Origin: Apostichopus japonicus
Lineage: Eukaryota > Echinodermata > Holothuroidea > Aspidochirotida > Stichopodidae
DNA length: 64,000 bases
Reading direction: 5' to 3'
Assembly: GCF_037975245.1 (NCBI RefSeq)
Contig: NC_092569.1
Coordinates: forward strand, 23,565,668-23,629,667
Shown here: positions 3,201 through 63,162 of the stretch, piece by piece
Numbering within the stretch: position 1 is the stretch's first letter
How the letters are laid out: each line of letters begins with the position of its first letter
The notes under the pieces: generated by a model
Seen by the model: the letters and a program-made list of their open reading frames with translations, nothing else
Databases searched by the model: none
Told to the model about the DNA's origin: nothing
Position numbers and translations under genes: made by a program

Positions 3201-4009
3201 TTTTGTTAATAATATCAATAATAGAATTAAAATGGCACAAATCTGCTAAAAGTGAAACATTTAACTTCCAGTAGCCACGGCCCCTTGGCTCGATTTTACA
3301 ATTAATAGTAAGAGTAACGCTAGAATGGTCGGACCTAAAAATAGAAACAATGTCAGCTGCACTCACAGATTGAACAATGTGTCGAGAACACCAAAATAAA
3401 TCGAGTCGACAGTGAATAGAATTATCAACAGAAGAATGCTAGTTGAAAAGACGGGCGTTAGGATTACGATCACGCCAAACATCAACAAGATCATGATTTT
3501 CTGCTATCTGAAGCATAGTTTGACGGGCATTAAAATGAGTTCTTTGCAACCCTCCAAATTTATCATGAGTTAAATTACCTACCAAATTAAAATCACCGCC
3601 CAAATAATCGATGTACAATCAAATGCTGTCGAATGTTGTGCAATATTACTAACTTAAAATGGGTCATCCTTGTTTGGAACATAAACATTAATTACAGAAT
3701 AAATCTGATCGTAAACATTTAAATCAATTATAATATACCTTCCATTTTCATCGACCCTAGTTCTTATAATAATAATATTGAGTTTCGGGTTGAAAAATAA
3801 ACCAACACCTCTACTGTTATTATCCCCATGGGAAAGATAAAGATTACCACCCCATTCTTTTGACCAAGAGTTAACATCACAAGGGACAGAGTGACTCTCT
3901 TGTGGTAAAATAACGTCAAAACGACGTAAATAAATAAATAACTTTTTTTTCTATCCATATAGTTACGTAACCTACGAGCATTAAACGAAACCAATTTTAC
4001 TTCAACCAT
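298..4009 (-). pseudogene. LINE ORF2 (endonuclease + reverse transcriptase), many lesions
   Basis: Endonuclease: the N-terminus reads KLVSFNARRLRNYMDRKK (from 4009). A WGGNLYLSHG-like stretch follows at about 3860, and the conserved SDHSSV motif lies at about 3310-3340. Reverse transcriptase: QTGFLKGRFIGENIR and LFLDLEKAFD (2230-2345), then FGPKCIRWVRTY (about 2130-2170). The catalytic box reads LQYADDTVLF (about 1905-1937). The C-terminal region has FCREVCEAWAEFNFY (about 1180-1225) and WNKIFRLPYTAVNDPK (about 735-785). Stops and frameshifts lie between these blocks. The last conserved frame ends at a TAA (complement of 298-300). Such proteins nick DNA and reverse-transcribe their own RNA; this copy cannot. 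Confidence 0.8.
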
Positions 4010-4301
4010 TATGTACGTCTACTTATAAGATAAAGTTAAACTAATTTTGCTGGCCACAAAAATTATAAAGTTACGACAGATACAGCGGTATAAAGCAAAG
4101 AGAAAAAGAAGAGTTCTAAACCCCAAACAGCCATCAGATCTGACCTTGAGATAAAGGCTGGCTTGGAGCAGGGGCGGGTCAACGTCGAAAAACAGCAGAG
4201 TACTGAGATTACCAGGAAGATACATCGGGCCCATAGTGCTGGAGAAAACTAGACAACTACATCCTGGCAATTAGGAGAAGTTAAATGGTTTACCATTTTG
4301 A

Positions 4302-5013
4302 TCACGCTATTGTCCTAACAAGAAATCGAAGTTTAATGCCTTCCGAGTATAATTGCGAAACACGATCACTCCATTTCCGCTTCTCCAGTATATCAGCATG
4401 GGTGAGATCGTCGGTGATAAAATAATCCATATCGATGAGCGAGGTTCTCTGCTTCCGTAGAATAGTAAGTTTATCTTGGAATGTGGTAAGTCGCACCAAA
4501 ATATATCTAGGTCGTTGCTGGTTTAGGACGGGAAGCACCATCACGATGAGCTCTAAGAACTTCAGCATCTTGAAGGCCGGCAGTACGAAATACTCCCTTA
4601 TTAGAAATAGCAACACAATCCTCAACCTCAGAATATGGATAGCCAACTATGCGAAGATTACACTTTCGAGAAAAGCGCTCTTGTTTATTCACAGCTACCA
4701 ATAAGTTTTCGTTAGCTTTCTCAAAATCGCAAACTTTAGTTTCCAAGGCAGTGATATGTCGTTGAGTTTCTGCATCTTTTGTCTCGAGCACTTCAACCCG
4801 GGTGCTAAGCAAAGCCAAAGCTCTGTTGAATTCCCGATCAATACGATTCAGGTCATCTTTAATACGATGCATGGATTCCCGAATAGACTTGCCCAAGTCG
4901 TCTATCTGCTCCTGGTTATGGTCATCGTCTGAGGAGTTGTATAGGCTATCTCGCCTAACAAAATCTAACGTACGTTGTGAAGGCGTTGTCTGCTGATTCT
5001 TATTTTTAGCCAT
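4302..5013 (-). pseudogene. LINE ORF1 (L1 ORF1p-like RNA-binding protein), frameshifted
   Basis: It starts at an ATG (complement of 5011-5013). The first 168 codons give a charged, heptad-like coiled coil (about residues 35-115), then a piece reading RKCNLRIVGYPY, which resembles the RRM start of L1 ORF1p (Transposase_22 family). That frame stops at 4507. From about 4520 the similarity continues in another frame with RPRYILVRLTTFQDKLTILR and a C-terminal domain down to about 4302, so one frameshift splits the gene. By family, the product coats LINE RNA as a trimer. The 4010-4301 stretch is the inter-ORF spacer. Confidence 0.75.
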
Positions 5014-11300: not shown

Positions 11301-12582
11301 CAAAGGTCGATACCGAGAGAGCTGTTGTTAACCGTTGTGGAGCCAAAACGCTATTGTTGAAGAAGGCCAGAATATTCTATTCGACTATCCAGTTCCATAT
11401 CTGTGCTGTGAACCTACTAACTGTGGCAGAGGTTTTCATCGGTGTGTAATAAACTCGCAATTAAGAAACAACACAGGCATATAGCCAACAGGCACAATGA
11501 TCATTTTTTCGAGAATCTTCCTAGAAATAGGTTACTGACTTGAAAAACTGAAGAAGCGGATATACCTGGCTGATGACTAGGGCAAAAGGAAGAAGCCCAG
11601 AATTATCCAAGCACGTGTATTGTTTGTGATTTGTTGTGGTACGCTATGGGCTAACGTGTCTACTGGATGTCATACAGGATGCAGCCATATACAGTAATGT
11701 ATTCAATCAACACAAATCTCGTTCTTCGCGTCTTTACAGTGGGTTGATATTTAAAGTTACTAAATGGAAGTATACTATTCATGTATGTTGTAGCAGTGAA
11801 CCGGTTATGAGTTACAATGGTGTTTAACATGTAATACCATAATCATGTAAGGAGTTGTTTGAAATTATTCTCGGAATAAACTACAGTTTGGTTTAGCTGT
11901 AATCATCAACTCAGTATTTGGAGCAAACCGTGACAGAATATTTCACTGCTATCACCACGCAGTTTAATGGAATGTATTGGCCATAAACGCACTGACTGGA
12001 CCGCTACTAGTAAATTCACGAGCGTCATAGATTCAAATTCCTCCGTCCGTGTTGCAACTATACAGAGTATTAACCTACAAGAAATCAGTTCATTGGAGGC
12101 AAACAACGGAACTTTGGAATCATTAGACTACCACTGTTTACTTATCATTGTATAACGTGTCCGGTTAGTGCCAAATGAAGCATAATTGTTTACTTAAGTT
12201 TTTGGACTTTGAGAGGCACACTGCTTTGCTTTTATATATATCTACTGATGTAACTTCCTAGAAATTGTGTGACCTATTGTTACTTATGCACAGAAGTTAT
12301 TGTTCCGTGCAGTACGTGTAGGTGTATCCAGTATCGTCTGCCGTCTTTCTGTTCGAATTGTGGATTATTACATCAACTTATTTCGTCAATTTTGGATGCT
12401 GTTGTTTAACTTGTTTGAATGATTTCACGTTTTAAAGATACACATTTCCCAAGTTGCAAGCTCAAACGAAAACTGGGAGGTTATAGTTAATTAGTGGTAA
12501 CGATAACGATATAAAGCATACTATACGCATCATCTTTCAGTGTATCAAAGTGGATGTATAGTACAGTGTTTTTCTTATAAAT
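8357..12582. other. intergenic region upstream of the TLR, no gene seen
   Basis: A 4.2-kb gap. It contains a GTTC/GTCC simple repeat (8864-8911), an AAAC-rich tract (9120-9146) and C-rich runs (about 10300-10316). Frames at 9154-9483 (-), 9599-10054 (-) and 11246-11449 (+) show no recognisable domain. The last part must hold the TLR promoter and 5' leader, but I could not pick a TATA box with confidence. Confidence 0.4.
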
Positions 12583-15500
12583 ATGAAGTCGAGTCTGCTT
12601 CATTGGCATTGCAATGTTACCATTCTGTTCCTTTTGTTGAATATAATCTCGTTCGGTGGCTGCATGGTCAACGAAACGATTTGCCTACAGCAGTGGGACT
12701 GCAAATGGCGAACTGACTTTCCATATACCCGCACGGAGGGGCAATGTTCATACCTTCTGCCCGGATATTACCCTATAGACGGCCCCTCTTCTTCAGCCCC
12801 GGAAGGAAGCAGATGTAATTTAAATGTCGATTGCAAAAGGGGAGACGTTAACTCCACTGAGATGTTCGAATGTATACAGGTCCTTACTTCACAGTCGCTT
12901 GTGGAATCTCTGCGTCTTTACCGTTGTAACAATTTGGAACTTAAAAATGGAGATCTCGAGTTTTTAACATCTATGATAGAATTTAATATATCATACACTG
13001 TCATAAAGGAGATGCAAGATGAAGTATTTTACAAAACAACCAACCTTGTTACCGTAGACGTCTATCAGGACTACGAAGCAGGAGTTAGCATATCGGAATA
13101 TCCCCGGGCATTTATAGGTCCTGTGCCTCAAAGCACGAGCGAAATTAGCAACACTTTCCTGCCAAATTTGAGACATTTGATACTTTCTAGTTTTAATTTT
13201 TCAACGGGGATTCCAGAGAATGCTTTTCAACACCTTGGTGCTTTGGAAACTTTAGAATTTGAGTTTGTTACCCTCCAAAACAGCGATTTTCAAAGTATGC
13301 GAAATTTGACAGAACTTGCACACCTTAAAATTTACGACAGTCAAAATATAGACTTGCTGCCACCACGTATCTCGACTTTCATGCCAAATCTCCAACATTT
13401 TGAAATCTCTATGACTAATATTTCTAATATAACTGTTCAACAGTTAGAATCATTCCATAAGCTGGAAACACTCATATTGGACAATAACTTGCTTGTAGAT
13501 ATTGACTTGTTGGCATTTCAACATTTGACAAATCTGAGGAGTCTATCTTTAGCTGGAAACCGACAACTACAAATAATTCCTTTCTTTGACAGACTAACCC
13601 AACTTGAAAAACTTGATCTCAGCAACTGTGCAGTATCTAATCTTTCTCTTGAAGTATTTTCAAATCTCAACAATTTAAAACATTTGAGTTTAAAGAAGAA
13701 CAAACTAAAGCAAATTCCACCCCTTTTCACGAAATTTCCAAGTATAACCGGATCTATTACATTAAAAAAAGTTGAAATCGTTGATTTATCAGACAATGAG
13801 ATCAGTAGCATTATGGCGTACACATTCAGTAACTTAGAAAACCTGAAATCTATAGATTTGTATAAAAATTACATTACGGAAGTCCATTATATGACTTTTT
13901 TTAATTTAAAATCACTCGAAAAAGTGTCTCTGGAATTCAATGCCATTCAAAATATTCACAGAGACGCATTTTACGGAATAAGTACCTTGAAAAACTTGAA
14001 TTTAGAGGGTAATATGTTAACAAATTTCCCCAAGCTTTCAAATGTTAATTGGGAGGTTGACCATCATAACCTTCCACGAGATCCCTTTTCAACGGACATA
14101 CGGGGTAATCCACTCCAATGTAACTGTGACATGTTTAAGGATGTGTTTATTCGTGTTGGTCGAGACATATGGCAATTGCAATATTACTACGATATTATCT
14201 GGCCTGGCAATTACTTTTTGACAAACCAACTTTTCGTTCAAGCGAAATTTCTCGAATGCCAGACAGAACTATACGGCAAGAATAAAATAGACCTAATGCT
14301 ACATGATCCAGAGAGGTGGTTCTCCCATGTTTCGTCAATAGATTTATGTCCCCATCCTTGCCGGTGCCTCAGCCAATGTTCAAACGGTCATTTCTATGCT
14401 GTCTGCCGGCATGCTAATCTGACTTCAATACCAAACGGATTAGGATCGTGGGTCAATACTCTCTATCTTGAAGGAAATATGATTACCCAATTAGATTCGA
14501 CATCACTTTCCAATATGCCTGACCTTACCAACGTTGACTTGGGAGACAATCGAATTTCTTCCATAGAGGACGGCACCTTTCATAACTTGCATAGTTTACG
14601 CGAAGTATCTCTACGTGGTAATAACCTTACTGTGATTCGTTCCAATACGTTCAACATCTCCTCGTCTCAGTTGAAATACCTTGATATATCGTCAAACAAT
14701 ATTGCTGACATCGATCGTGACAGTTTTCTAAGCGTTTCTTCTTTGGAAGTTTTAAAACTTGACCAAAACAAATTAGAGACAATTTCTCAAGGAGTCTTTG
14801 ATAATCTACACAATTTATCGCTGTTAACGATTAGCGACAACCCATTCAACTGCACTTGTGATTTGCTGTATTTAACAGATTGGTATGTAAAAGTAGCGTT
14901 TGTTCCCGAAAGGAGTTTCTCTAGCGATATTGCAGAAATAGGATGTGCTCCATTTTTGAACGAAACTGAACTTTACGATTGGATGCAAGAGCAAACAGTG
15001 ACATGTAACCCGGTGATTCCCCCTTCTGACAGACCGAAACCAAGCTCGGTTATAGTTGTTCTTGTTGGGGTTTGTGCTGCTGCAATTACTTCACTTGTTT
15101 TAGGTTTCATCTACAAGTTTCGGTTGGAAATATTAGTCCTCATATACACAAAGACAGGTGTGAAAATATTTGACAGAAATGCTAGTAACGAAGAAGAAGA
15201 GAAAACATTTGACGCTTTTATATCTTTCAGTAGCATGGATAGGCAGTTTGTTCTAGAAGAATTCATCCCGAGACTGGAAAGTGGAGAAAACAAACGAAAA
15301 CTTTGTATTCATCATAGAGATTTCGTCGTAGGTGAATGTATCGCAACCAATATTATTAATGCTATAGAGAATAGTAACAAGATTTTAATACTGTGTTCTA
15401 AAAATTACTTGGAAAGTGAGTGGTGTTCTTATGAGTTTAAGACATCACACCATCAGGCATTGCGTGATCGCAGTCGTAGAATTGTTCTCATCATGATGGA

Positions 15501-15687
15501 AGATGTCAAGAAATCAACATTGGATAAGGAAATCAAAGCTTACATCTCAACTAATACTTATTTAGAAAAGAAAGATCCATTATTTTGGTCAAAACTACTA
15601 TATTCTGTTCCAGCAGCTAAGCGTGGCAATATCGACACATTGAAAGAAACGAATGCAAACAATGTCTCTTCTGAAACATGTGTTTAG
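12583..15687 (+). CDS. Toll-like receptor (Toll type, two cysteine clusters), single exon
   Basis: A 1034-aa type I membrane receptor that by family senses ligands through its ectodomain and signals through a cytoplasmic TIR. An in-frame TAG at 12559-12561 supports this ATG. Order: signal peptide (1-27); a cysteine-containing N-terminal cap; leucine-rich repeats (about 130-500); a first LRRCT starting NPLQCNCDMF (about 511); a second cap CPHPCRC (about 589); more LRRs; a second LRRCT starting NPFNCTCD (about 753); a membrane span (about 822-846); a TIR domain (about 870-1012). TIR box 1 is FDAFISF, box 2 is KLCIHHRDFVVGE and box 3 is FWSKLLY. The Val at the usual Pro of the BB loop also occurs, from memory, in Drosophila Toll. 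Two LRRCTs with an internal LRRNT mark the 'multiple cysteine cluster' class, a minority class in deuterostomes. No intron, stop or frameshift. Confidence 0.95.
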   Translation: MKSSLLHWHCNVTILFLLLNIISFGGCMVNETICLQQWDCKWRTDFPYTRTEGQCSYLLPGYYPIDGPSSSAPEGSRCNLNVDCKRGDVNSTEMFECIQVLTSQSLVESLRLYRCNNLELKNGDLEFLTSMIEFNISYTVIKEMQDEVFYKTTNLVTVDVYQDYEAGVSISEYPRAFIGPVPQSTSEISNTFLPNLRHLILSSFNFSTGIPENAFQHLGALETLEFEFVTLQNSDFQSMRNLTELAHLKIYDSQNIDLLPPRISTFMPNLQHFEISMTNISNITVQQLESFHKLETLILDNNLLVDIDLLAFQHLTNLRSLSLAGNRQLQIIPFFDRLTQLEKLDLSNCAVSNLSLEVFSNLNNLKHLSLKKNKLKQIPPLFTKFPSITGSITLKKVEIVDLSDNEISSIMAYTFSNLENLKSIDLYKNYITEVHYMTFFNLKSLEKVSLEFNAIQNIHRDAFYGISTLKNLNLEGNMLTNFPKLSNVNWEVDHHNLPRDPFSTDIRGNPLQCNCDMFKDVFIRVGRDIWQLQYYYDIIWPGNYFLTNQLFVQAKFLECQTELYGKNKIDLMLHDPERWFSHVSSIDLCPHPCRCLSQCSNGHFYAVCRHANLTSIPNGLGSWVNTLYLEGNMITQLDSTSLSNMPDLTNVDLGDNRISSIEDGTFHNLHSLREVSLRGNNLTVIRSNTFNISSSQLKYLDISSNNIADIDRDSFLSVSSLEVLKLDQNKLETISQGVFDNLHNLSLLTISDNPFNCTCDLLYLTDWYVKVAFVPERSFSSDIAEIGCAPFLNETELYDWMQEQTVTCNPVIPPSDRPKPSSVIVVLVGVCAAAITSLVLGFIYKFRLEILVLIYTKTGVKIFDRNASNEEEEKTFDAFISFSSMDRQFVLEEFIPRLESGENKRKLCIHHRDFVVGECIATNIINAIENSNKILILCSKNYLESEWCSYEFKTSHHQALRDRSRRIVLIMMEDVKKSTLDKEIKAYISTNTYLEKKDPLFWSKLLYSVPAAKRGNIDTLKETNANNVSSETCV

Positions 15688-41104: not shown

Positions 41105-44100
41105 TTAACCCGCAAAGGGACGAATCTTCATTTCCGTAAACTGGATATTGTAGATGCTTCCTGGTAATGTCTCCCATTCGATGCTTCGATAACTGTCGCG
41201 GGGTCCAAAGTATTCTCCGTTGAAGTTAGAAGCTGCACATTCATTATACCACCAAGCTCCGTGTCGATTAATGGCACAGTTGCCACTCCACGGATCGTTG
41301 TCACGGTCGTAGGTGCTGAACGGGCGGGCCAGATGATAACGCAATGCGTAACCATCAGGATTGCTTCTAGAATCTGTTAATATGAATATATAATATGAAA
41401 TAAATAAATATCCGAGTTACAAATGCAATGTGCTGAACATTTTCCGCATCCTTTGGTCAAAACCACATCCTTAGGCAAGTCTCTGCCAGCTGCATTTTCT
41501 GAAAACAATACATATCATAAAGAGAATTTACTCGAAATGTTCTCTGGAATGTGTGCTAAGCTCTATCTGGGTTTACGGGGACTTCAGCTGCAGCATTTGC
41601 ACGTGTTGTTGTTCTCTTGAAGCACAGAAATATATAACATAGAGGTATTCAACCTCAACGGATTTTATTAACAATCCCCGTTGAAGTCCAAAATGGTGAA
41701 GCCCCCGGACGTTGTATCATATGAGTAACCTAATATTACCTGACATCTTGGCAATGTAGACGTCTGAGACCGGTTTTGACTTCGGTTTCTTCATTTTTAG
41801 TTTAACTCATTTGCATGGGTGTAAAACCACACTAAATTCTGATCCAACTTTGGGACCACCAATCCCATCCCACCCCCTGTGTCCTGGTTGTTTCTTTCTT
41901 AGCAATTAGCTTTGGGTTGTCCCATGTTTAATCCGAATGAGATCAGAAAACACCATAATATATATTTAAATTGATATTAAAACTTTTTTGGCCCATTCTT
42001 ATAAGCACAAGAAGATTCGAATGCAAATAGCCACGAAAGGTCAAACTTGCCAACATGTTGTAACAGAAATAACTGCTGCATGAACTTGCACACTAAAGAT
42101 CGTCACTTTGCAAGGGCGTGGATCCATATTGCTCCCTCAAATCAAAATCACATGTCTCCATGCCCATCGAGGTTTTTGCCCCCCCCCCCCTCCTACTCTG
42201 AACTCTTGAACAGCCTCTTTTTTCATGAACTATATTAATTAAATATGTAATCGTAAACTGTAAGTGTTACAAACCAGCTGTTCCGCTGTAAGTTCCGACT
42301 ACTGATAAGCGGTAGTTGTCCGTCTCGTTATTAATGCGAAAGTGGTCAAACTTGGCAAAGTATGGAGCTCCATTCCTGTTCACCAAATCAATTCGTATTT
42401 CTTGTCTTTTTGCATTCGTTAAGAAATGCAGCTTTTCATTTCCAATCCAAAATTCGGAATTTAAATTTCCAAAGCCCTGCTTATAGTTATCCCAGTCGAG
42501 GTAGAAATCGACGCTTCCGTCAACGCGACGTTGAACGACCTCATGAATTTAAAAGCAAAGAGGGGAAAAAGCGCGAATTGTTAACCTTACAGAGGGAACT
42601 ATTTGTTTAGTCTATTAGCAGATAAAACATATATAAAAGTCCGCGAAATGAAGAAGAAAAAAAAAACAATAGTTTGGGAAGGGGAACAAACTTCGGGTTT
42701 TCGATGTAGCTAGTTTACCTTCCAAAAAATAAACTAATAAATCGGTTTACATACTGTTCAACCCATCTTACTGTCAACTTTGTGTCTGACAAAAGATCAT
42801 GTGTTTTTGCTGTTTTATTTTATAACTTTCTTAGGGGGAAGTGTTCTCCCCCCCCCCTCCCAAACACACACACATACACATATATTAACACCGATCGAAT
42901 CTTTGTAACATATTGTGAGAATAAATGTTTACCTACAATTATACTAACATAAAACTCTCACTTGACTCTGTTTGAAAGTTGACCTATACGGGACGATATT
43001 TCCTTAAGAACGGAAAGTATGCCACTTTATCTTTGAAACTAGACTAGTGTTTCTAATCTTTATGACCTGTTTTGCATGGATTAACTCTTAGACTAACAAA
43101 AGCAGGTGCGTATCCAGGGGGGGCGTTGGGGGCGCGCGCCCCCCGGGTAAGGAAAAGAGGAGAGAAAAAAAGAGAAGAAAAAAGGGAAAAGGAGGGGGAA
43201 AAAAAGAAAAGGAGGAGAGGAAGGAAGGGAAAAGAAAAAGAAAAAAAGAGGGAAAAAGGAGAAAGGAGGGAGTAGAAGATAAACGCCAAGACCTCGGGAA
43301 GAGAAAGAGGAACAGTCATAGTTAAAGCGCTGATCCCTATTATATACACAGGTAGCCAGTGACAGATCAAGGATTACGGAAGGGGTGTGCGCCTCACCCT
43401 ACCCCTTACATCGACAACTCCATTTTTGACGTTTCCATTTTTCCTCTCTCACTAATGTATCTATACACTCTAAAAACTGAAGTGCTAATTTAGTAGCTCC
43501 AACACGGTGCTAGTCATCAATTAGCACTTTAAGAGCTAGTATCTCAACCTTCAAGTGTTAAATAACTTGCACCATCCAAAGTGCTATCGCCGTAGTTGTG
43601 ATGCACTGCACTTATTAAGTGCTGAAAGTTTCGTATTAACTTTTGATTGGCTGAAGGCGGTGACGTCAGTAACATGCAACAACGCTATTGGTTATAACCA
43701 AATAGTTGCATATCGCATCGCTAGACGTGACAACTGACGAACGTTCCACCGGCAGACGTAAGTTTCTGAATTGAAATCTGTGAATATTCACCAGAGTAAG
43801 GAATATTTGAAAGCTGATATGGCGACCTTTTATGAAATTTGAGTGATCATTCATGTTTTCAATAACCTAGCTTCGCTGATGACGTCGGGAATTCCCTTGA
43901 AATAATTCCTCTGTCGACGTCTTAGTGATGGTAGCCTACCACTTATTTCATAGGTCTATTCACGTATGTAAATGCCAAATGCGCTCTGATATAACATTAG
44001 GCTATGCCAAGTTTATGATTGGGCGTTTATAGGCCTAGCCTACCTCCTTATTGTAGCATTTATAAGGCCTAACTTTATGGCCGCCAATGGTGATTCGATT

Positions 44101-47100
44101 AAGGTGTGCTACTGGTACTACAGTCTACTGTGTTTGCACAAGTGGCCATCACAGTCTTAACGTATAAGAGAGGCAGGCCCAATGCAAAAAGTATTGGTAT
44201 TGGTTTATATGCCAATGCCTAAAGAATATGAGCCGATGGCCGCTAGACGACCACAAGAGAACGTTGTGGAAGGCCTGCCACTCCATATTACGCTTTGAAT
44301 TTGTGGTAGCCTAGCCTAGGCCTAACATTATTGTGGTAACAGGCCTAATGTTGGTGTTGTTAATGTTACTTTGCAGTGTAAGGTCTGTGTGTGATTGCCG
44401 ACTACAAAATGAAGTAGCCTACAAAGTACAAGTACAAACCATACTTCACAGTCATACATTATTCAGGTTTAAAGAAAAATTAAAGTAAATGTAAACATAA
44501 AATAATGATCAGAGTAATTGTATACATCCTATTCTTATTTGACCTTCATAGTGTTTCCCATTTTTCATGCATCGCTTAATGTTGTGTACCCTAATGTTTG
44601 CCTTGTTGGCACCTATCAAGGAAGGCCTACTATAAGTATGTTTTTCTTTTGAAATGATGACTCCCAACGTAAATATGCTTCATTTAAGATGTTCTCTCAT
44701 GAAAAGTGAAAGATTATAGGTAGGCTAAATTTTCCAATTAATTTGAAACAAATTTCGGTGAAACTTTAAACATGCTTTTTTTTTTATCGAAACTGTTTAT
44801 AGACTCGAGCTTTTGCAGAAAAATGAAAGAAACCTGACATGTTTTGAGATTCATTGCATGTTTTCTTGTTCTATTCTTGTACTTGTAGATTTTGCAAGAC
44901 TTTGAGCAGATGTATGGAGATCAGGTCGCCAATAACTTTTTGATGAAATGGGGGGGAACATTCCCGCTTCATTTGGAAGTACATAGCATGTACTCACCAA
45001 CTCAGCTCTGCGGGACCTTCAGTTTGAATTTGAAGAAACAGAAAAGTCTGAGGGTATGTTTCAAAAAAGTGCTAACATTTTGTAGTCATGTGACTCTCAT
45101 TATGTAAGTTCAGTCAAGTTTTCTGTAGTGAATATTTGGTATGTTAGCTCTTTAAAAGAATGCTATAGGTAAAATCATGTACAGAAAAGTGGCAATGCTG
45201 TTAACAGTTTGTCTGGTACCCAACTTTCTTTAGACATACATGGAAGAAATGAATGAAAGTGATTAAACCGAAACTGAATTACATTCCAATCTAGATTTTG
45301 AAGAAGACTTAAGTTCAGACACCATAGAAGCTGGTGGGAGCTTATGTGGTTGGTGGGCATCTACCTGTTTAACGATAGTTCATTAAGTGGTATTATCTCC
45401 TGCAGTCTTATGTGAATTTTCAAGTACTGAAGCTAACTTGGCTAAACTGATCCATGGGAGGGGACCCATCACGAATGTATCCAAAAATTGAGGTCAAAGA
45501 TCATTTAAGTGTCAATTCAGGCTGCAGCGTGTGAATCAAAAATAGCCAGATCATTATCAGATTGCTCGCAAATTGTTGAAATCAGTGGATTAAAACTTGT
45601 ATCCAGATTTCAGATCAAAGGTTATAACTAAAATTTAGCCAGTAGCCAGTTCTTAGGCCCATGCACTAAAATTGACTAAGCTGGCAATCCTGTTCACTTT
45701 TGCTTTCTTTCCAGCTGTGGAGTAAGGGTAAACTGAAGGAAATTTTCTTGAGCCACGTACTGTTAAAGCGCTGTGGGTGGAGGGGTGTGTTATTATTCTA
45801 GAAACATTCTAGAACCAATGTTGTAGGTCTGGTGGTGTAGGGTTGTACCTGTATAGCCACTTGCTTGGTTCATTCATTTATACGAGTTACTGTACCACTT
45901 GATGCCTTAGTTTCCTCCATCCAACAGTGTATTCAATAAGCAAAAGTATTAATTTCCTGGCCTAACCAATTTCAATTATAGAAGCATCCCAGAAATCCTT
46001 CAGTCTTCCACCATATTTATTTTAGTGACTTTGAAAAGACCTATGACTGTGAAATTGACATAGGCCTATGTAATTGGGTTCAGTGGACATAAAAGTATAT
46101 CAGATTAATGTTTTTTTTTTTTGGCATGCAGTGCCTATGTGTAATTTGTATATTGCAATTTCTAGAGCAAGTAGTAGGAACAAACAATTACTAACTGACA
46201 CGTCACACTATTTTGTTGACATATACATCTGTTTTGTTGAGATATGTAATCTGTTTTTATGTTTTTCATTATTAAGAAACTTTTCATTTTCTTCTTTAGA
46301 ACATGCATCCATGTACGGTCTCTTTGCATTGGTTCACCTATTGCCGTCTTTCAACACAAGGAAAAGTGGAAAATGCAGTCGAGATGACAATGTCCGTTAC
46401 TTCATCGCCTGGCAACCAGTAAGTTGTTTTGTGTGTTGAGTGGGAAAGATCTGCCAAAATTCATGCAGAGTGATCAATCTTTAACCATTTGAGCCTAGGG
46501 GATATTGGTGCTGACATTCTGTCCTCTAGACCTCAGCCCCTTGGCTCAATCTGGGCTGGGCGGTCCAGGTAGGTGCTTTTATTAAATGTGTCTTTCCTTC
46601 AGGAGATAAGAGTCAACCACATAAAACTATCTGATACAGATGTGGGTCAATGTAGACTATTCTATACCTGAGCCAGATAACCCTTAATTATATATCAAGT
46701 AATATCTGCATATCTTTTTAGCTGGTTAGATATTAACATGGATTTTATATTTGGTTAAAATATGGCACTAGCCAGGCAGCAGTTCAGGCAAGATACATAA
46801 TAGTACGGTTAGTGATGCAAGCAGAATGTGAACTAATTTTCACCCGGACTAGTTGAAGTTTTCAGAGATTACTAGAGAAATTGGCACTATTTTGGAAATT
46901 AATGCTTGCTTAATTTATTTTCTTCTTAGATCGGAACAAATGTGGAAGAATATGCAAGGAAAAGCCAACTCAGCAGTAAATAGCCACACCTCTTGGCCAT
47001 TGGAAGCAATGTGACTGACTTGCAGCAGTTTTTTTTGTAGTTCTAGATGGAGTTGCCCTACCTGTTTCCAGGCAAGCATGTGGAATTGTAGCAGCTACAG

Positions 47101-50100
47101 ATAATTTAATGAAAGTTCATTATGTTTTTAATGTAGCATATGCGGTGCAGCTCACAGATTTCTACACCTTTATCCAAACTGTGTTGTATGGCATACCCCT
47201 AACAGGTCAAAAGATAAGTAATCATGTTAAGGAGATAAGGATTGCTTGCAAAATGTGAAGTAGAGACTGTTCACAGTTTAGTTAAAAAGCATTAAGGAAA
47301 GTCTGTTGCAAGCATGTCTTAAAATTTATTCGTTTTAATTACTAGCATTAATCGCTTTCAAGATTTCTCTGAACGTTTCTTAAGTTGCATTGGCCATTTT
47401 GTAGTAGAAAAACATGCCGTACGTTTTTACTTTGGGATCAGTGTTTCAATTCTAGTAATCCTTTGGAGCTCAGTATATACCTATTATATAAAGTGTAGTT
47501 GGATTTTTGACATTAACAGAAATATAAGGCCTACAACACATGGTTAACAAATACAAAACTGAACACTACACAACTTAGACCCACATATATCTCTAAAATC
47601 ATCTCCAGATGAACCTGGTTACGATGGATAAATTCAGGTTTTGACCAGTTATTCAGGTTGTACAGTTGATGATTTAAGTTTGGGCTTATAAAATTGGGAG
47701 GGATACTGCTTGCACCAGATCTCAGCCACAGCCACTCACACAAATTACTCATTACTAATTAATGACTCACAATATGTCAGGTACTTGCTCGCCCTTCGGG
47801 AGCATAGGTTTACCTAACTTAGTCTTGATTGGGTGTTGTCACTGTTAATTTTATCATGTTTTAAAACATTCATTCAGACTGTTAGATGTTATTCAGTGTT
47901 ATGTTTCAGTTTAATTTTGCCCCATTTGGGGATCAAGTTGGTGTATTTTCATTTGACTTAATTAAAAGAGTGGAGTGAATAGGTTTGAAGGTGTTGTCCA
48001 AAATAAGGGACCATGGGAACAAAGCCTCATTGGGTGGTCAAAAATGTTTTTTTTTTAAATTTAATTCGTCCAATCTGAGATCTTTTCCAGTTGGAATCTG
48101 GATTTTACTGAATTTTAGGGGTGCATAGTCCCATCTCCTGTAAATATCACTCAGTACTAATACAGAAAATTAATATCATGTTTGAAAATTGTAACGTCCA
48201 TGGCTAAATGTAAACATAAAGTTAGGCTAGAACACTATGCATGGATATACTCTAGCACTTCTGGTCAACAGCCTTAAATTTATAGTAACCAAAGGGTTTG
48301 CTGAGATACTTAATCTAATCCGTCTACACTATTTGGTATAAGTGTAACTTATGAATTTTTATTTCTCAAGTACAGGAAGCAATAAAAGGAAGAAAGAAAA
48401 GAAAAAATGTGTTCTCTTTTATTTCAGTCAGGAGATGCTGTGTTTTGACCTACCCTTTGCATTCCATATTTTGCAAGTGATACAGATTAATTAGGACTTG
48501 CACTTACAGGTGCTATATTTGCTCTTTCCAGTGCTGGTGGTAGCACTTAAAGTGCGGGACTGTTGTAGCACTTTTCAGGTGCTTGTATGGTTAGCACCTT
48601 TGAGAGCGCTGTTTATAGCACTTAGGGTGCAATCCCTCATAGGGCTCTTGGTAAGTGCTGTAAAATAGCACTCTATGTGCTGTTTTCAGCACTTTGTTTT
48701 TTAGAGTGTATAAATACTATATATGGTCTATCATAACGCGTGTGTGTGTATGGACGCCTTAAACAATTGTAGAATTGTGCTATATGGAACCAACTGTGGC
48801 TGGTCTTGAACTCGACCGAGTCGTCGGGGAACATTTCGGAAAGGGGGCGACCGCCCCCCCCCCCCCGAGCAAATTTTCTTTATGACATCGCTAGTAATTT
48901 CGAAATAGACAATGCTTAGATGCAACTTACAAGGCCTGGGAAGTGTCATTTCCAGCGATCTGGGAGGCATTTTCGGCCAAAATTTTTATTGTACGCTTCG
49001 CGCCAACTCATGGTGGCGCTTCGCTTAGATAGTTTGCCTACAGGCAATGACTCGCTACACGCCTGTTCGAATTTGTAAAGCAAAGAGCAGATATAACATC
49101 ATATCAGTGAGCAATAAAATGCATTTTCCACGATGAACAGCCTCAAAAACTGTCTATGTGTGTAGTCAAAGGCGTAGGAGCCCAATTGGATTTGGGGGCT
49201 GTAATGACTTGCCCGAAAAAAAAGCCAAAATTTCGCGCGTTCAACGTATCGATGCCAATATCATATAAGCAAACATCGGTCATTATATTGCATGGCATCG
49301 TGTACCGCACGGTACGTGAAAGTTGCACAGTATACCGCCAAATGCTAATGTAAACAACCAAATACCTTATGTAGATGGAGAAAAACCATACAGATCCATT
49401 TATGTCAAAACTCTCTTTTACAGTAGTAATGTCGGCCAAGCTTACAACTTTATTTTAATTACCACGGAGATCATTTTTAAGCTATTCATTGCTATTTATT
49501 TTTCTTTCAGTAGGTGTCCGAAAAAAAATTGGTTGCGGGGGGGGGGCTGCAGCCCCGCCTCCTACGGGACCTACGCCTATGTGTGTAGTCTTCGGTTTCG
49601 ATATATACCTGATATCGGAAATATCTGCTATTTTTCTGTTCCTTCAACCAAGTTTTACAATAGCCATTATAAGAGGTTGCAATATTTCTACACCAATAAA
49701 TTAACTCTGTCTGAATTTTCCAAAATTTCCTCACCAACATTATTCATCATACTTTCCTCTACTCGTGCAACTTTTACCAGTCTGTTAGAGGTTGCAGGAG
49801 GTTTCTCTATATTGGTTATCCATAGATTGAATTTTGTGCAACATTATGGGTATGTTTTCAAGTGATTTTATTCACGAGAAATGTGAATTTTCAAATTCTC
49901 AACAAATAATGGGCTTAAAACCTTGAAAAGTCGGGCTTTCGGATATTGTGGGCCGTGACGTAGAATCACCTACAAAAGCAATGATCCATAGGACATGCAA
50001 TCAGGTCGAACATGATGTGTGACTGGTGACAATCTTCAAAAAGGTTATGGATGGAAAAAAAACTTTTGGGAAATACTTGGTTCTCAGGCAAAAGTCTACA

Positions 50101-53100
50101 TCTGGTTGCTCATTTTCAAGCCCGAGAAGTGCCATTTCCGGTGATCTGGGGGGTATCAAAACCAAAAATTTTCTTGTACGCTCCGCGCCAACTGATGGTG
50201 GCGCTCCGCTTAGATAGTAATTCGCGCCCCCCGGGTTAGAAAATCCTGGATACGCGCCTGAAAAGCAGACTGAATTTAAGTTGTAACAGTTATTATTGTG
50301 TTTTCTTTGAAAGAGCTAATTGAAGAAATAGTGGTTCATGTCAAATGCAATATTTATAAGATTATAATTTTAAGGCCAACACTTTTCAATAAGAGAAGCG
50401 TCTTATTTATGCATCCATTTAACCTTCAAGCGCCATTTAACGTCCCATCCAACGTAAGAAAGTGTACCATAGTTCTTCGCTACATTTCAACACAATGTGA
50501 AGTTGATGAAGAAAAACGAAGAAAAGGGAACTGAAAAAAGGACCATCGGTCATTAACAAGAAAAGGTTAATCTCCAAAACACAGCAGTAAAATACATAAT
50601 CTTTGTTGCTCGTTATTATAGTCATAACCCCCCCCCCCCCCCAAATGAGATGAATCGATAAGTCCTAAACTACCATTTGAGTACATCAACAGAGAAAACT
50701 GCTGTCGTTAAATCTTTAATGAAAGAAGTTTGTAATCATTTACTCACAATCCATCCTCCTCCGTCGGTCATATTACAATAAACATTAAAAGCTGATCCAG
50801 GCCAGTTGTTCGGCTTTATCTTGTAGATTCCATTATCAATAAAGCCAGAGGTATATGCGTCTTGACAATCAACAAAATCTGTAGAAGACAAAACATACAA
50901 CCGATTGTTTGATTAGAAGTCCAATACGGGATATATTTTATTCTAAAAAAACAAATTTTTCATATTGTTTGCTTCCTTTTGTAGTTAGTCCAGAAAACAA
51001 GAGTTAATTGTGCTATTTTAAATAAAACATGAACGTCTTAATTGTGCTGAAAGATAGGGTCAGATTTGTTTATACATTAAAAGCAGGACAGTGCTCTCAA
51101 GCTAAACGAGAGTTGTACGTTCCGTTCAGAAAAGTTCTAAATCTCTTTTGAAAGAATTTCGACAAAGGCTTCTCAAAAAAAAATAAAAAATGACTTCTTT
51201 AAGTTAAAAAGACAAATGTAGAATGTTGACTTACGAGAGAATTGGAATAATGTTCCAGAGTTTCTTTCAAGGCTCACTAACTTGTAGTTGCTAAACTCAT
51301 CCCCAATTCGAAAGTTCTCGTAAGACTGTTGAAATGTAGAACCATTTGAAGTTGTAATCTCAAATATCAGTTCGTATTTGTTTTGATTGGTCAGCAAAGA
51401 TATTTTCTCATTGCCAAGGTAAAATTCGTGAGAGAAAAAGCCGAAGCCATTTTTGTAACTCTCCCAGTTACGGTTAAACTCAACCGATCCATTCTCAAAC
51501 CGACGATGAATGACCTGTCAATGAAATTGTATGGAGAACTCGTAACTTTCAGACGATTAATAATAAGTGTAGCATTACTCTACGTTAGGACAACTTTGTC
51601 CATGTGTATACCACTACCATATTTAAGTTTTTTAGGGTTTGTCGCTAGATACACACAACACGCAACAAACAACTGGATTATTAGTCTGAAGAGACCACTT
51701 CGTATAGATTACAGTCAATTATAAACACTTTTTTATTTCTAACAATAATGTACATTATAACAAGCTAATTTCAAAAGTATTTCTCCCATCAAATGTTAGT
51801 TATTTCATCGCATAAAGTAAACCAAATGGCAAAACGGGAATGACTGTACAATATTGCTCTCAGGTACATACCGTCCAACCACCGGCATCATGAGAACTGT
51901 CGCAATATACTTCGAAAGGTTCGACACAAGTGTCTGGTTTAATTAAAAAAATTCCACTTGAATTACTTAATTCACATTGATCTCGGACTTCCTTACAGTC
52001 TCTGGGGAACCCGGGTTGTTGGTAGAAGAAAATGGATGAATCTTGATTAACAAAAAAAAAATTGTAATAATAATGTTTGTGGTTTCTTCCCAACTAGGGC
52101 TCTAATACAATTAAGAGGCTAACAAGTTTGATACATAGTTGTAGTGACTGCAGTTTTATTTGGATACATTCATCACACCCTCCCCTTCTGAAGGATGTTA
52201 GTACATTACTACGTATTTTGATCTTGACAAAGCAATAGAAATATTGAAGAAACATGATATACATTATGGATTCTCTAAAACAAACTTGAAAAATATCATC
52301 AAGAACTTTTATTTTTGAGTTTACTTCAATTTTACTTTATATGTATTGTGTATTTGTACACAGGCTGAAAATTGTTTTACCAATTATATATCCAATATCT
52401 TTATAAATATAGATGTTTGAGTTTCTTATACCACTTCTAAAACAAAATTGACTAAAACATTGACTCCTATTTATAACAGTAACAAATTATTTTTAACAAA
52501 ATGTGTTACGATCGTGATTATTTTACCTGTAGTCTGCTTGGTGGTCTCGTGGTTGTTTTCTGGCTGAGCAGACTAAGTGCAAAGAGAGAAAAATTGTAAA
52601 AGACAGTTGTAATTTATCATAAAAAAAGGTATTTCTATCTCCAATAAGAACATATGAACAACAACCCAGAAGTTAAATATACAGTGTTCTTTGTTCCCAT
52701 AGTAATTTGAGGAAGAAACAAAAGTAAGAAAAATGCTAGAACATTGCAAAGTTTTTGCAAATTATTTGTAATATTTACGCAAAAAAAAGGATTATCTTAG
52801 TATATACAAGAAACTTCCCTAAAGAAAAAAAAAGCATTTAAATATTTACAAATACAGAATGAAAAATATGCAATTATTAATTAAGTCAGCAATATGGAAC
52901 TAAGGTAAAAGAAATTGATTTTTCTTTCAAACTGAAAATTAATTTTACATCTGTCAACAAATTTTGACCAACAATGTCAATACGTAGACTACGCGATTGA
53001 TGTATGCAATATAATGTACACGTTATATATTTCCTTAATACAGTATATTAATTTCTGTGAAATTAAACAGTGTCGAAAAATACTTTTACTGGTTACTTGA

Positions 53101-56100
53101 ATTATCATCCTTAATGCAAACAACTAGGGATAAATTATAAGTGCAGGCGCAGATCATGCAGTTGAAAAATTAAAAAATTAAATATATTCATCAGCATATT
53201 ATATTATAAGCCTAATTTATACCAGTCAGCTTCAACGATCTTAGGGCCACAGGAACTCGCAAAGGCATATTCCCATGTCTATAGACATGTAATTTTCTAC
53301 AGGGATTGTAGTCATGAGATAAATAAATTTACATGTTCAATATTATTTAGTTATGTGTTAAGTCTAGCTGACATTATTAAATTTTGGTTTGAAACCTAAT
53401 CTCTAAAACTTTTGACTGTCTGTTTCATTTTCCACGTAAAATACCTAAATAGAACAACTGTATATAGATCAATTTATATTTGACTGATAAAAATGGCAAC
53501 ATAGTCATCTACGCATTGGTGTAACTGACTTGTACAGCCATTTTTGAGATAATAACAGCTAAAAGTTGTCGAAAGTTTTAGACTAAATTAACGCGATTAA
53601 GGATCAACCAAAATGTTTGATGTCGCAGTAAGACTGACAAAAAAAAACTTAGTTTTTTTTTTTTCTCTCCCCATTTCAGTGCAATCTTGTATCTTTGGAC
53701 TAAACTTTTACATTATGAGATTTCGTAGCAATTAAGAACTTAAACGCCATATAAATGTACAATGGAAAGCTTCAAGTATGGATATACAGGTTATGTCAGG
53801 ACAGATTTTATGTTAGTCAATGATATCGCAAGAAATCTGACATGCCCAAAGAAAAGTTTGTACATTAAGTACGAAACTATTAAAAGAAGGGACTTTAAAA
53901 TCAAAGGTTGCTAAACGAAATAAACTCAAGAAACTCTAGAAGTTAAAGTGACTAGACTGTCTTTTGTCTTTTAATTGTGGATTTTCATTGTCGTTGTAGT
54001 GTAAGTACATAACTGAAGTAACGCTTGCTGTTTGTTGCGTATATTAAAAAAAAAACTCGTACTTTGTAAATGATTCCAGATTATTCTGTACATTGATAAA
54101 TGTCAATAAAGAACTAAAAACTAGCAAAGGAATGAATTATTATGTTCCAATGAGTTGAAAACGAAAGCGTATTTGCAAAACGTAATGGATTTCAATGCTA
54201 ACGATCGGTATCTGTAATAACTTCAAATTGTCTGAAGTAACTCGTTTACTTGAAGACAAAACAATAGATGTTAGCTGTGGAACGTAATAAAGTAAATTGA
54301 ATATGTATTTGTTTCTATTGTAGCGTGTAAAACTATTGGTACCGATTGAAAGAAGTGGTTCTTTTAAATTACCGTACGCCAAGGCAGATCAAATTTGCTT
54401 TGAAACTTAGAGCAAATCCAGAAATATTGTTTTATTCTTCACGTTTCTATAAAGATACAGGATTGGTGTCTTAAGCCTATCACGTCCGTCCAACTTTACC
54501 AATATTGTTGGAACGGTTCTACAAATGTCTCTGGTTTTAATCAAGTAAATAACGATTGGTGATAAAAGCCTTTCAGAAACTATATCTAAGTATTATATAT
54601 TTCAAAATAAAATAAAACTGTTAGCAAACTGCTTATACACTAGAGAGCCTCTGTAATAGAATGTGTAACAGTAAGTTGGCCTGACGTTTCGATCCTAGTA
54701 TCTTCTTCAGAGGCTAAATGACAAGTACAGTAACAGAAGGGACAAAAGCACGCACAGAAAACAGACAGGTTAATGAGCACGGTGAACACAATGAGATAGA
54801 TGAAAGGGGATTATAAGTGGACAATGGATGGTGAGAAGAAAGCAACAGGGAAAGAGGAGAGGTGGGAGATAAACAGTGGAGGAACAAAGAGAGGATTAAA
54901 GGAACAGGGTAGGGAATAAACTGGAGAGGGACAAAGACAGAAAGGTGTGGAGAAAAAAAGAGGGGAAGAGAGCTATGGGAGGATGAGTGAAAGGGGGGGG
55001 GGACAAGGGGAGAAGGAGTGGGGGACAGAAGAAACGTTAGTCATGTCCTTCCTGAATGTTCAGCCCATGAGGTTGAATGGTGCGAAGGCGTTGCATCTAG
55101 AGCCTCTCTCTGCTGATTTGTACTAGGTCAGGGCGGCTACCTAAGGATTCAATCCCCTGTAGGGACATGTCGTTAATGGTATGGTTGTCGTTAATTTATG
55201 GAAATATACCATTAACATGTCGTTAATGGTATATTTCCATAAAAAATCGCTAATTTCGTTTTAATATAGAAAAAGAGAGGTATGTAATGCAATGATTAAA
55301 CTTCTTCTAGACAATTTTTTGCGCACGATACTTTTAATGTGTAAACATGCTTGTGTTGATCTTTGTAGAAAAATCCTTCTTATTGGTTATTAGTTTGGAA
55401 GGAGCTTCTCTTTACCGTTCAAACTCGTCGTTTTCATACATCCTCGGTTACCAAATATTTTTCAAGCTGTTAGTAAATATTTCATGATATTCTAAGTTGT
55501 ATAAAGGATGCTACATTTACCATTAAAGGAAAGAGAGTAAATTATTACTAATTGGTGATTTGGCAAATTTATTCCACTTTTAATAGGAGAACTGAGGGCT
55601 AGAAAACTATTTCAAACATATCGGGTTCTTTAAGACCACATTTAAATACTTTGCACGATTTGTTGCTTTCTTATTTAGCATACCCAAATATATTCAGTTG
55701 GTTAAGGAGAGCATAATGTACTATTAACAATAACTTAACTGTTATATATTTTTCTTCTAAAATATATTAGTGAAACGTTTGCTATATCTGTTTTGGTAAA
55801 TATAGATGTTTTAATAACTTATTAAAACGTTAGTGCTGCTTGCCACGTTTCAACGCGAAAGCACCGTGTGGAATGTTTTCATATCAACCAGTACTATTTT
55901 CTTCTCGTGGCATTAAGACTTGTTTTAAGTATTTCTAGTAACTTATGGTGTATCTAAAGTAGTTATAAATTTTATTTAAATGCAAGATAAAATAGGCTGG
56001 ACATTTGCATCTGATTTTTTCACTGCATTAAAAAGCAAATGTCCTAACAGTCAGCATTTGTGATTTAAGATTTAAATATGGAAAAATATTTATAAATATT

Positions 56101-56347
56101 AGTTAAAAATATTTCCATATTCATTAAAAATGATGAAGACGTCAGAAATAGCTTTTTGCAAAGCAGGGACATCTGTTAAAAGTTTCAATCAAGTTTTTAC
56201 CACCTTTTATACGACTTTAATAATTTAATAATTTCGTACAAACCATGTCAGATATTCAGGACTCACCGTTAACTGCAACAAAAGCGAACCTGTTATCCAA
56301 AACAATATTTGGAAATGAACTCTCTGCTCAAGAGTCATAATCTTCAT
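41105..56347 (-). CDS. secreted protein with a truncated FReD followed by a complete FReD, seven exons
   Basis: Exons in transcript order: 56267-56347 (81 nt), 52527-52572 (46), 51872-52041 (170), 51235-51514 (280), 50748-50878 (131), 42275-42539 (265), 41105-41373 (269). These sum to 1242 nt and give 413 aa. All borders are GT..AG with matching phases. Exon 1 is a signal peptide (MKIMTLEQRV... 27 aa); exon 2 is a 15-aa linker. Exons 3-4 (43-192) give the first two thirds of a FReD: GFPRDC, GGWT, VIHRRFENGSVEF, then LVSLERNSGT. The usual third exon is missing. Exons 5-7 (193-413) give a complete FReD: FVDCQDAY, GGGWI, VVQRRVDGSVDFY, YSGTAGDS, a DRDND calcium-type loop before NCA, GAWWYNEC and EMKIRPF. 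Exon lengths 81 and 46 equal those of genes A and B, so all three share descent. Intron 5 (8.2 kb) is full of mobile elements. It could also be two gene fragments, but the phases join cleanly. Confidence 0.78.
43149..43272 (+). repeat. polypurine tract (~124 bp, all A/G)
   Basis: An unbroken A/G run of GAAAAG/GGAGG-type units directly inside the left end of the nested island, preceded by GGGGGCGCGCGCCCCC. Confidence 0.85.
43464..48710. mobile_element. 5.25-kb DNA transposon with TIRs and AGTGCT-rich ends
   Basis: The left end TACACTCTAAAAA (43464-43476) is inverted at the right end (TTTTTTAGAGTGTA, 48697-48710). The 4-bp TATA occurs at both edges (43462-43465 and 48709-48712), so TA or TATA could be the target-site duplication. 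Both inner ends (about 43480-43630 and 48530-48695) carry many AGTGCT/AGCACT motifs in both orientations, typical of subterminal transposase-binding arrays. The interior carries plus-strand exons (44889-46983). I see no transposase I can name. It lies inside intron 5 of the tandem-FReD gene, in the opposite orientation to that gene's transcription. Confidence 0.75.
44889..46983 (+). CDS. partial spliced gene inside the TIR transposon, unknown (SAMD3-like family resemblance)
   Basis: Three exon-like pieces with good borders: 44889-45053 (TAG|ATTTTG ... AGG|GTATGT), 46300-46418 (TTTAG|AA ... CCA|GTAAGT) and 46930-46983 (TTAG|ATC ... TAG stop). They read ILQDFEQMYGDQVANNFLMKW, then MYGLFALVHLLPSFNTRKSGK and YFIAWQP, then IGTNVEEYARK. 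From memory this pattern (a load of F/K-W residues, then LLPS, then an 'F.. .QP.GT.VE.Y' end) is like invertebrate and fish proteins annotated 'SAMD3-like'; I hold that loosely. The first exon ends in phase 0 and the second starts in phase 1, so an exon is missing between them or the copy is broken. Start unknown. AATAAA at 48381-48386 may be its polyadenylation signal. Confidence 0.45.
48929..49065 (+). repeat. hairpin-containing dispersed repeat, copy 1
   Basis: Shares with 50115-50260 the blocks GAAGTG.CATTTCC, GATCTGG and TTGTACGCT.CGCGCCAACT, then ATGGTGGCGCT.CGCTTAG. GCGCCA and TGGCGC can pair around a short loop. Ends ACACGCCTG. Confidence 0.65.
49168..49576. mobile_element. 0.4-kb insertion flanked by 14-bp direct repeats
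   Basis: CTATGTGTGTAGTC occurs at 49154-49167 and exactly again at 49577-49590, as a target-site duplication would. The inner ends are roughly inverted (GGCGTAGGAGCC on the left, CTCCTACGGGACCTACGC on the right). No coding capacity; the long plus-strand frame 49323-49865 runs through and past it without a known domain. Confidence 0.6.
50115..50260 (+). repeat. hairpin-containing dispersed repeat, copy 2
   Basis: Same family as 48929-49065. It continues into a CGCGCCCCCCGGG block and CCTGGATACGCGCCTG, which forms the right end of the nested island. Confidence 0.65.
54484..54560 (-). pseudogene. decayed FReD first-type exon inside intron 1 of the tandem-FReD gene
   Basis: The complement reads IVIYLIK, then after a one-base insertion PETFVEPFQQYW, and ends in a GTTGGACGG donor-like stretch. 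This matches the functional exon at 51872-52041 (GIFLIKPDTCVEPFEVYC ... GGWT|GT). The frameshift, the Cys changed to Trp and the shortened end make it a relic. No matching second or third FReD exon could be recognised nearby. Confidence 0.7.
54670..55140 (-). mobile_element. noncoding Penelope-like element remnant (low confidence)
   Basis: GCCTGACGTTTCGATCCTAG followed by TCTTCTTCAGAGGCT (54679-54714) is the kind of sequence found near the ends of Penelope-like elements. A purine-rich stretch follows (about 54790-55030), then GCGTTGCATCTAGAGCC (about 55088-55104). No protein similarity found here. Confidence 0.35.
55195..55243. repeat. perfect 22-bp inverted repeat with 5-nt loop
   Basis: Arms 55195-55216 and 55222-55243 are exact reverse complements around the loop ATGTC. 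The core TCGTTAATGGTAT also occurs just to the left at 55170-55182. Confidence 0.9.
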
Positions 56348-62856: not shown

Positions 62857-63162
62857 AATGGTCCATATTACGTGAATCACAATTGTACAATGACGGTTAA
62901 ATGTACAGATGGGCTGATCAGCGTGAATGAAGGATACAGTTGTGATGCTAATGCAGTCTGTGAGAAACGCAGCGGCGAACGCAAGTGTTACTGTACTAGG
63001 GGTTACCAAGGTAACGGACAGACCTGTAAGCAGATAACAGACTGCCTGGATCTGTTTAATGAGGATGTCACTACCGAGGGTGTATACCCGATTAAACCGA
63101 TAAAATGGAATACATCACCCCTTGACGTATTCTGTGATATGACTCACGGAGGAGGATGGACG
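62857..63162 (+). CDS. EGF-like plus FReD-start exon of a fourth FReD gene (partial)
   Basis: A 306-nt exon, phase 0 at both ends, with borders TTTTTAG|AATGGT and TGGACG|GTAAGT. Residues about 14-53 form an EGF-like module (C...GYSCDANAVCEKRSGERKCY then CTRGYQGNGQTC; the NA.C and GYQGNG pattern is of the nidogen/thrombospondin EGF type). It is followed by the start of a FReD: DCLDLFNED, GVYPIKP, VFCDMTHGGGWT. The exon ends at the same point (GGGWT) as the matching exons of the other FReD genes. The rest should lie beyond 64000. Opposite strand to the other three FReD genes. The product is probably secreted, with EGF as a spacer or interaction module and FReD as the ligand-binding end. Confidence 0.8.

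Follow-up and report, generated by a model that had tools for sequence, protein, structure and literature searches.

What does a gene make when it places a fibrinogen-related domain (FReD) that lacks its last part directly in front of a complete one? FReDs are usually viewed as one fold of three parts, here called sub-domains A, B, and P. We studied a gene of the sea cucumber Apostichopus japonicus with this unusual arrangement, on the minus strand of a stretch of 64,000 nucleotides (the window, C9:23565668-23629667, contig NC_092569.1) from a genome of 671.6 Mb in 35 contigs. An earlier note, made from the letters of the window alone, had described the gene as encoding a secreted protein with two fused fibrinogen domains. 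According to our analysis, the gene probably belongs, as one of the short forms, to a large family of secreted fibrinogen-related lectins clustered on one chromosome, in which a headless arm made of the first A and B sub-domains (A1 and B1) precedes a complete FReD (A2, B2, and P).

Exons and modules of the gene

Exon reading on the DNA gave seven minus-strand exons that join in frame into a product of 413 amino acids, as the earlier note had it. All six introns are of the GT-AG type, and the exon start phases are 0, 0, 1, 0, 1, 0, and 1. Exon 1 (56267..56347) is an open frame with a start codon, a GT donor, and a hydrophobic stretch that reads like a signal peptide; the product would thus be secreted. 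Exon 2 (52527..52572), an open frame also found in copies of the gene, encodes a short hydrophilic linker and runs from phase 0 to phase 1. With their flanks, these two exons are 98% and 97% identical in a near-identical copy (loci L001/L002). In the more distant locus L003, exon 2 aligns at 74% over 54 bases, whereas exon 1 aligns only in its 3' portion, donor included (76% over 62 bases), together with a stretch upstream of exon 1 (73% over 49 bases, E 0.005). The first fibrinogen module follows: exon 3 (51872..52041) encodes A1 with the residues SSIFFYQQ before it, as identified by Pfam Fibrinogen_C and exon profiles, and exon 4 (51235..51514) encodes B1, identified by Pfam and by its place in the B1 clade described below. 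It has a good donor, and the intron scan found no P exon after it. The gap to exon 5 is 356 bases. Exon 5 (50748..50878), with an acceptor in phase 1, starts at 50878, position 50879 being the final intron base, and encodes A2 without the TILa/EGF part that this exon carries in most paralogs examined. Behind an intron of 8.2 kb, exon 6 (42275..42539) encodes B2; like exon 5, it was recognized by exon profiles. Its acceptor is GAG, which is a weak form, versus CAG in the near-identical copy. Exon 7 (41105..41373) encodes the P sub-domain, supported by Pfam and by matches in the PDB, with a DRDND calcium loop, an NCA..GAWWY..C pocket, an EMKIRPF strand, and the stop codon.

The joined protein has two matches to Fibrinogen_C (2.2e-102). 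Taken alone, module 1 covers positions 1-124 of the 221 of the profile (2.5e-35) and module 2 covers positions 4-220 (2.5e-68), and matches of this strength are not due to chance. Comparison with solved structures gave the same picture: module 1 matched only the A and B parts of ANGPTL2 (the best PDB match, 1.4e-27), angiopoietins, ficolins, and fibrinogen, whereas module 2 matched chains of ficolin-1, tenascin-R, and FIBCD1 over nearly their whole length. Module 1 carries the A and B sub-domains, lacks P, and ends where the C-terminal P exon should begin. It is hence devoid of the calcium loop and the ligand pocket, and structure knowledge predicts that it would be unable to fold as a classical FReD. 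The architecture of two FReDs in one frame, the first without its third exon, is therefore confirmed.

The earlier note had left room for a third exon overlooked between exons 4 and 5 (50879-51234). We scanned the introns of the gene with family exon profiles, stops being masked, and at E<=10 the profiles of A, P, TIL, and TILa/EGF matched nothing there; all that was reported were B matches on the plus strand, the highest at 6.4 bits, and exon 2 fell within one of the scanned stretches. As a control, the known exons of the window and of locus L004 were recovered at 69-143 bits. For the divergent P exon of L034, the score was 24 bits when the first P profile was used and rose to 85 with the second, in which L034 was included. 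The scan thus gave no sign of a missed third exon or of a relic of TIL/EGF exons in the window gene. A structure prediction of exon 4 alone, based on an alignment of the four B exons of the window, was too poor to be used (mean predicted local distance difference test score, pLDDT, of 44.6).

A family with a headless first module

To place the gene among its relatives, we searched its own genome with exon 5, exon 4, a TIL exon, and an A1 exon. Each search returned at least 150 matches, and the size of the family is accordingly a lower bound. Among the matches listed, those to FReD exons concentrate on C9, and we used only C9 in a search for partners (145 of 150 A1 matches, 142 of 150 B1, 138 of 150 TIL, and 128 of 150 A2). 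Of the 145 A1 matches, and again among the matches listed, 88 are followed on their strand by a B1 within 3 kb, 55 by an A2 within 6 kb, and 54 by both; a TIL match lies between B1 and A2 in 40 of these 54 sets. For the remaining A1 matches, the partners may be absent or may lie outside the matches listed.

We then scanned the window and 36 DNA pieces of the genome with exon profiles. The loci were picked from the match lists and are thus a non-random sample. This gave 33 genes with B1, comprising 34 B1 exons, and the scan found no P exon in any of the 31 intervals between a B1 and an A2. Three genes (L025, L027, L035) have no A2 in the fetched piece. In all 30 genes with A2, the exons A1-B1-(A2-B1)-A2-B2 are in this order on one strand, followed by P in 29 of them, while the piece of L017 shows none. 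A TIL exon comes after B1 in 27 of the 33 genes, 26 of which also have TILa/EGF (with four such matches in L017). The commonest layout among the genes examined is thus A1-B1-TIL-TILa/EGF-A2-B2-P (type I). The type I gene L004 matched the Pfam TIL model at 29.5 bits, above the cut-off of 24.5; its matches to TILa (25.7 bits) and EGF_3 (24.7) are below the cut-offs (27 and 28.5). The shorter layout A1-B1-A2-B2-P (type II) is that of the window gene, its near-identical copy, L003, L013, and L014. One gene, L012, has three FReDs of which only the last has P (A1-B1-A2-B1-A2-B2-P); a tandem duplication of 1,091 bases, 98% identical (2704-4873 of that piece), adds one B1 and one A2 exon. Single A-B-P genes were found at L016, L019, and twice inside the window. 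The latter, at 28397-26086 and 36519-34658 on the minus strand, are near-identical tandem genes and provided a P-bearing comparison. An exon at 62857-63162 on the plus strand, made of a TILa/EGF part and an A2-type sub-domain, belongs to a further EGF-FReD gene that leaves the window.

The gene, whose architecture the earlier note called the most unusual of the window, is thus no isolated case: the truncated module is present in 33 of 33 genes examined, and what is unusual is the large family, within which this gene is ordinary. To assess the constraint on this module, we pooled the ratio of replacement to silent substitution rates (dN/dS) over 69 of 325 pairs (26 genes), those of moderate divergence, which are not independent of each other. 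The ratio was 0.34 for A1, 0.18 for B1, 0.21 for A2, 0.18 for B2, and 0.30 for P; over 34 pairs, it was 0.37 for TIL and 0.34 for TILa/EGF. B1 and B2 thus face equal constraint, and the headless B1 is under purifying selection. Between the window gene and L003, dN is well below dS in all five FReD exons (0.098 vs 0.683 in B1, 0.306 vs 1.508 in P). The earlier note had suggested a new module or a spacer. The former fits these data; a mere spacer does not, since the element recurs in all 33 genes and is under purifying selection.

In the P exon, the loops that surround the expected ligand pocket are variable and contain much tyrosine. Three genes in the 6-Mb cluster (L029, L030, L032) have a stop codon inside P and are probably decaying copies. 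They were excluded from the counts on P, dN/dS, and type I diversity, which hence favour intact genes. Among 20 type I genes in which each of the seven exon types is present, gaps are most frequent in P (a fraction of 0.23, versus 0.004-0.08 in the others), which also has the highest tyrosine content (14%) and a mean identity (0.52) equal to that of TIL. The P pattern could be parsed in 26 of the 31 exons tried (the others being L008, L016, L019, L031, and L034). In these 26, the loops span 5-12 residues from the calcium loop to CA, 6-17 from CA to WW, 4-32 from WW to NLNGxY, and 19-31 from NLNGxY to EMK, and 17-22% of the residues in the loop stretches are tyrosines. The WW-NLNG segment has 28-32 residues in L015, L018, L036, and L037, is long by eye in L034, and has 4-5 in the other parsed exons; the long segments contain many cysteines and tyrosines and look as though the pocket had gained a small additional disulphide loop. 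In six genes at C9:22.4-23.2 Mb, dN/dS was 1.11 in the loops versus 0.26 in the frame, and in six other genes 0.56 versus 0.18, with loop columns that were defined after the alignments had been seen. When the loop columns were shifted circularly, the observed ratio was never attained in the first set and was attained by 2 of 85 shifts in the second; these numbers are rough, as the unshifted placement should have counted once in the first set.

To study the origin of the layout, we built trees after dropping near-duplicates (eight exons from the B tree, L026 from both the A1-B1 and the A2-B2 tree, and L027 from the former of these two). The unrooted B-exon tree has three separate groups: B1 (support 99/96), B2 (96/69), and the four exons of single genes (98/81). 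B1 stands on one side of a branch in 100% of 200 bootstrap trees. The A exons of the single genes L016 and L019 have the A1-type start FFYQ..PRDC and score as A1, from which we infer that A1-B1 goes back to a gene with a single FReD whose P was lost ahead of the expansion. Under this scenario, a single A1-type FReD gene would have lost P and been joined once upstream of a TIL/EGF-FReD gene, prior to the expansion of the family. The window gene and two close relatives would afterwards have shed both TIL and TILa/EGF, so that their two FReDs became direct neighbours. Type II genes are scattered in the A1-B1 tree, where the window clade and the 22-Mb genes are at different places. A single origin of all type II genes was rejected only marginally: the constrained tree fits worse (approximately unbiased test, p 0.036), and the group had been defined with the tree in view. 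In the 22-Mb type, the deletion can be read directly. Compared with L022, L013 is missing a stretch that begins just within the TIL exon and extends into the TILa/EGF-A2 exon, to the end of its TILa/EGF part. The flanking blocks show 87% identity on the TIL side and 94% on the other, they overlap by 7 bases where they meet, and the fused exon is in frame (DAITFTSLTPAKDC). The junction of the window clade is different, with DFVDC in the exon frame, which suggests a separate loss of TIL/EGF in that clade. L013 and L022, the one short and the other long, encode the same P sequence, which points to recent duplication or gene conversion.

Alternative readings and proposed working

One might have expected A1-B1 and A2-B2 to be alternative cassettes, spliced in a mutually exclusive way to a shared exon 7 and giving two ordinary single-FReD lectins. 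Both cassettes begin and end in phase 1, which leaves 1-2-3-4-7 and 1-2-5-6-7 open, and L012 has three A-B pairs for one P. In type I genes, on the contrary, the A2 exon starts in phase 0 (12 of 13 genes, plus L004) and A1 in phase 1, so that the exon before A1 cannot splice straight to A2. The residues of B1 also differ from those of B exons that meet P, as counted after a filter at 90% identity that reduced B1 from 34 to 19, B2 from 31 to 21, and single genes from 4 to 3. Alanine in column 64 is found in 2 of 19 B1 and 21 of 24 P-bearing B exons, tyrosine in column 62 in 2 of 19 and 20 of 24, and arginine in column 79 in 1 of 19 and 23 of 24, although 13 of the 19 B1 have the similar lysine there. 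The end of B1, which would have to meet P, has a conservation of 0.30 versus 0.59 in its core, while the end of B2 has 0.50 versus 0.59. Yet B1 is one clade, and these residue differences may therefore reflect one ancestral event and not independent evidence. Besides, the B2-type ending occurs in 3 of 19 B1 and in none of the three single P-bearing genes; a B exon can thus meet P without it. Overall, we regard alternative splicing as unlikely.

The remaining explanations fare worse. The window gene could be a decaying copy, given the weak acceptor of exon 6, the stops inside P in other family members, and the differences from the near-identical copy (about 8.5 replacement and 4.5 silent), which are not mainly silent and are too few to judge. 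But all of its seven exons are open and the comparison with L003 revealed the constraint described above, which makes decay very unlikely. It is even less credible that the transcript of exons 1-4 stops short and that a second gene, starting on its own, comprises exons 5-7. The long intron between A2 and B2 would suit such a split, as would L020, which has A2-B2-P alone in a piece covering only 0.8 kb upstream of A2. However, exons 4 and 5 are very close, exon 5 opens with a phase-1 splice acceptor and exon 4 ends in a good donor, and the parts keep their order on one strand in every gene where A2 was seen.

Several observations weigh against the preferred reading, i.e., one continuous transcript that encodes a headless arm in front of a complete FReD. 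The joining of exon 4 to exon 5 is suggested by phase and order, and the phases of the window gene itself also permit the two shorter transcripts. The argument that the tail of B1 is unfit for splicing to P is weak, as several B2 tails vary and the single genes do without the B2-type ending. A home-made scan of 12 loci for signal-peptide exons gave only weak candidates in type I genes (L006, L007, L008); it also missed the known exon 1 of L001/L002 and decides nothing. The tree points to the loss of TIL/EGF in the window clade, and the junction that can be seen, in L013, is a different one. Finally, ligand binding by P is suggested by analogy.

How might such a protein work? In the fibrinogen gamma module, the C-terminal part contributes the central strand of the B sheet, and this strand can be removed without ruining the structure (PMC7659954, citing Yakovlev 2000). 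By our alignment, this strand would be encoded by the P exon. A1-B1 should then present an open sheet or fill the slot otherwise, and we accordingly propose that module 1 folds as an A-B arm while module 2 holds the ligand-binding head. The FFYQQ stretch of A1 was considered as a replacement for the missing strand and rejected as a specific substitute, because the single P-bearing genes L016 and L019 carry it too. In FIBCD1, the calcium ligands are at 393-399, and a disulphide (401-414) joins them to the acetyl site (PMC3908420). Mapped from conserved cysteines, these sites would correspond to the P region, flanked there by the variable loops. The terminal P may bind its ligand with the help of calcium, using loops that differ from one germline gene copy to the next, and the conserved A1-B1 arm may space, orient, or multimerise the heads. 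By analogy with ficolins or FIBCD1, the sequence features would allow calcium-dependent binding of acetylated ligands, and the family may recognise microbes or other surface sugars. A holothurian fibrinogen-related protein (FREP) is described as induced in the gut by lipopolysaccharide (PMC2702171), and FREP-type proteins are listed in the coelomic fluid of Holothuria (PMC12119288). Both would fit a role in defence; the paper on A. japonicus FREPs stresses regeneration instead (PMC5638244).

A bolder view is that the headless FReD is a new autonomous and repeatable block, strung as a single bead in the window gene and as two in L012 ahead of a complete FReD with a hypervariable P head, its empty B-sheet slot perhaps binding partners or polymerising the lectin. 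We find this unlikely. If true, it would mean that an invertebrate deuterostome has a germline-diversified, antibody-like recognition family, with a variable tyrosine-rich tip on a constant arm.

Two other elements of the window were recognised by reading. At 12562-15687 on the plus strand, a single-exon frame of 1041 amino acids is probably a Toll-like receptor gene, as it has leucine-rich repeats and a hydrophobic stretch and ends in a TIR-like part. At about 1600-5000 on the minus strand, a reverse transcriptase and an endonuclease split over several frames resemble a long interspersed nuclear element (LINE).

Comparison with known fibrinogen-related families

The lectin family proposed here shares traits with several known systems. 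Gastropod FREPs and FReMs are also large families of secreted FReD proteins, FReMs join EGF-like and fibrinogen (FBG) domains, and one FReM gene model, called partial, has no C-terminal EMKIRE-like motif (PMC7588048). In contrast, gastropod FREPs carry immunoglobulin superfamily domains (PMC7588048), of which none matched here: the window protein had no Pfam match to the Ig family at E<=0.001, and the only Ig-type match of L004 at E<=1 was one of 10 bits to an Ig-like NUP210 model with a cut-off of 25.2. Fibronectin type III repeats, which in tenascins lie between the EGF and FBG parts, matched neither the window protein (at E<=0.001) nor L004 (at E<=1); L004 has a match to EGF_Tenascin of 11.7 bits, for a cut-off of 25. 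Among the FREPs of Anopheles gambiae, as here, some have two FBG domains or even three, the majority being incomplete, but the accessible part of that account gives no constant exon order, TIL/EGF exon, or single terminal P (PMC1242226). The likeness to ficolins, tachylectin 5A, and FIBCD1 lies in module 2, which aligns to ficolin-1, tenascin-R, and FIBCD1 and has, by reading, the DRDND loop and the cysteine pair. The window protein differs from them by the headless FReD added in front and, by reading, by having no collagen-like part, and some paralogs have longer, tyrosine-rich P loops.

The closest precedent is in the same species. COX1 on contig C35 scores best under genetic code 9 (504.9 bits, versus 483.3 under code 4 and 474.1 under code 5), which echinoderms have in common with flatworms; together with the concentration of the listed FReD matches on C9, this agrees with an echinoderm. 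The FREPs of A. japonicus have been described as an expanded and clustered FReD family, in an account whose available parts mention no headless first FReD, TIL, or double-FReD layout (PMC5638244). A search of an open-access library found, among the titles and starts of abstracts listed, no headless tandem FReD or TIL-EGF-FReD family in echinoderms. As far as this search shows, the layout is thus new among FREPs. A large family keeps under purifying selection a FReD without its binding part, beside a complete FReD with fast-changing loops, so that scaffold and recognition would be separated within one gene. Genes with two or three modules, and with or without TIL/EGF, provide natural experiments on this arrangement. 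Together, they add a testable detail of internal layout to the expansion of sea cucumber FREPs already reported (PMC5638244).

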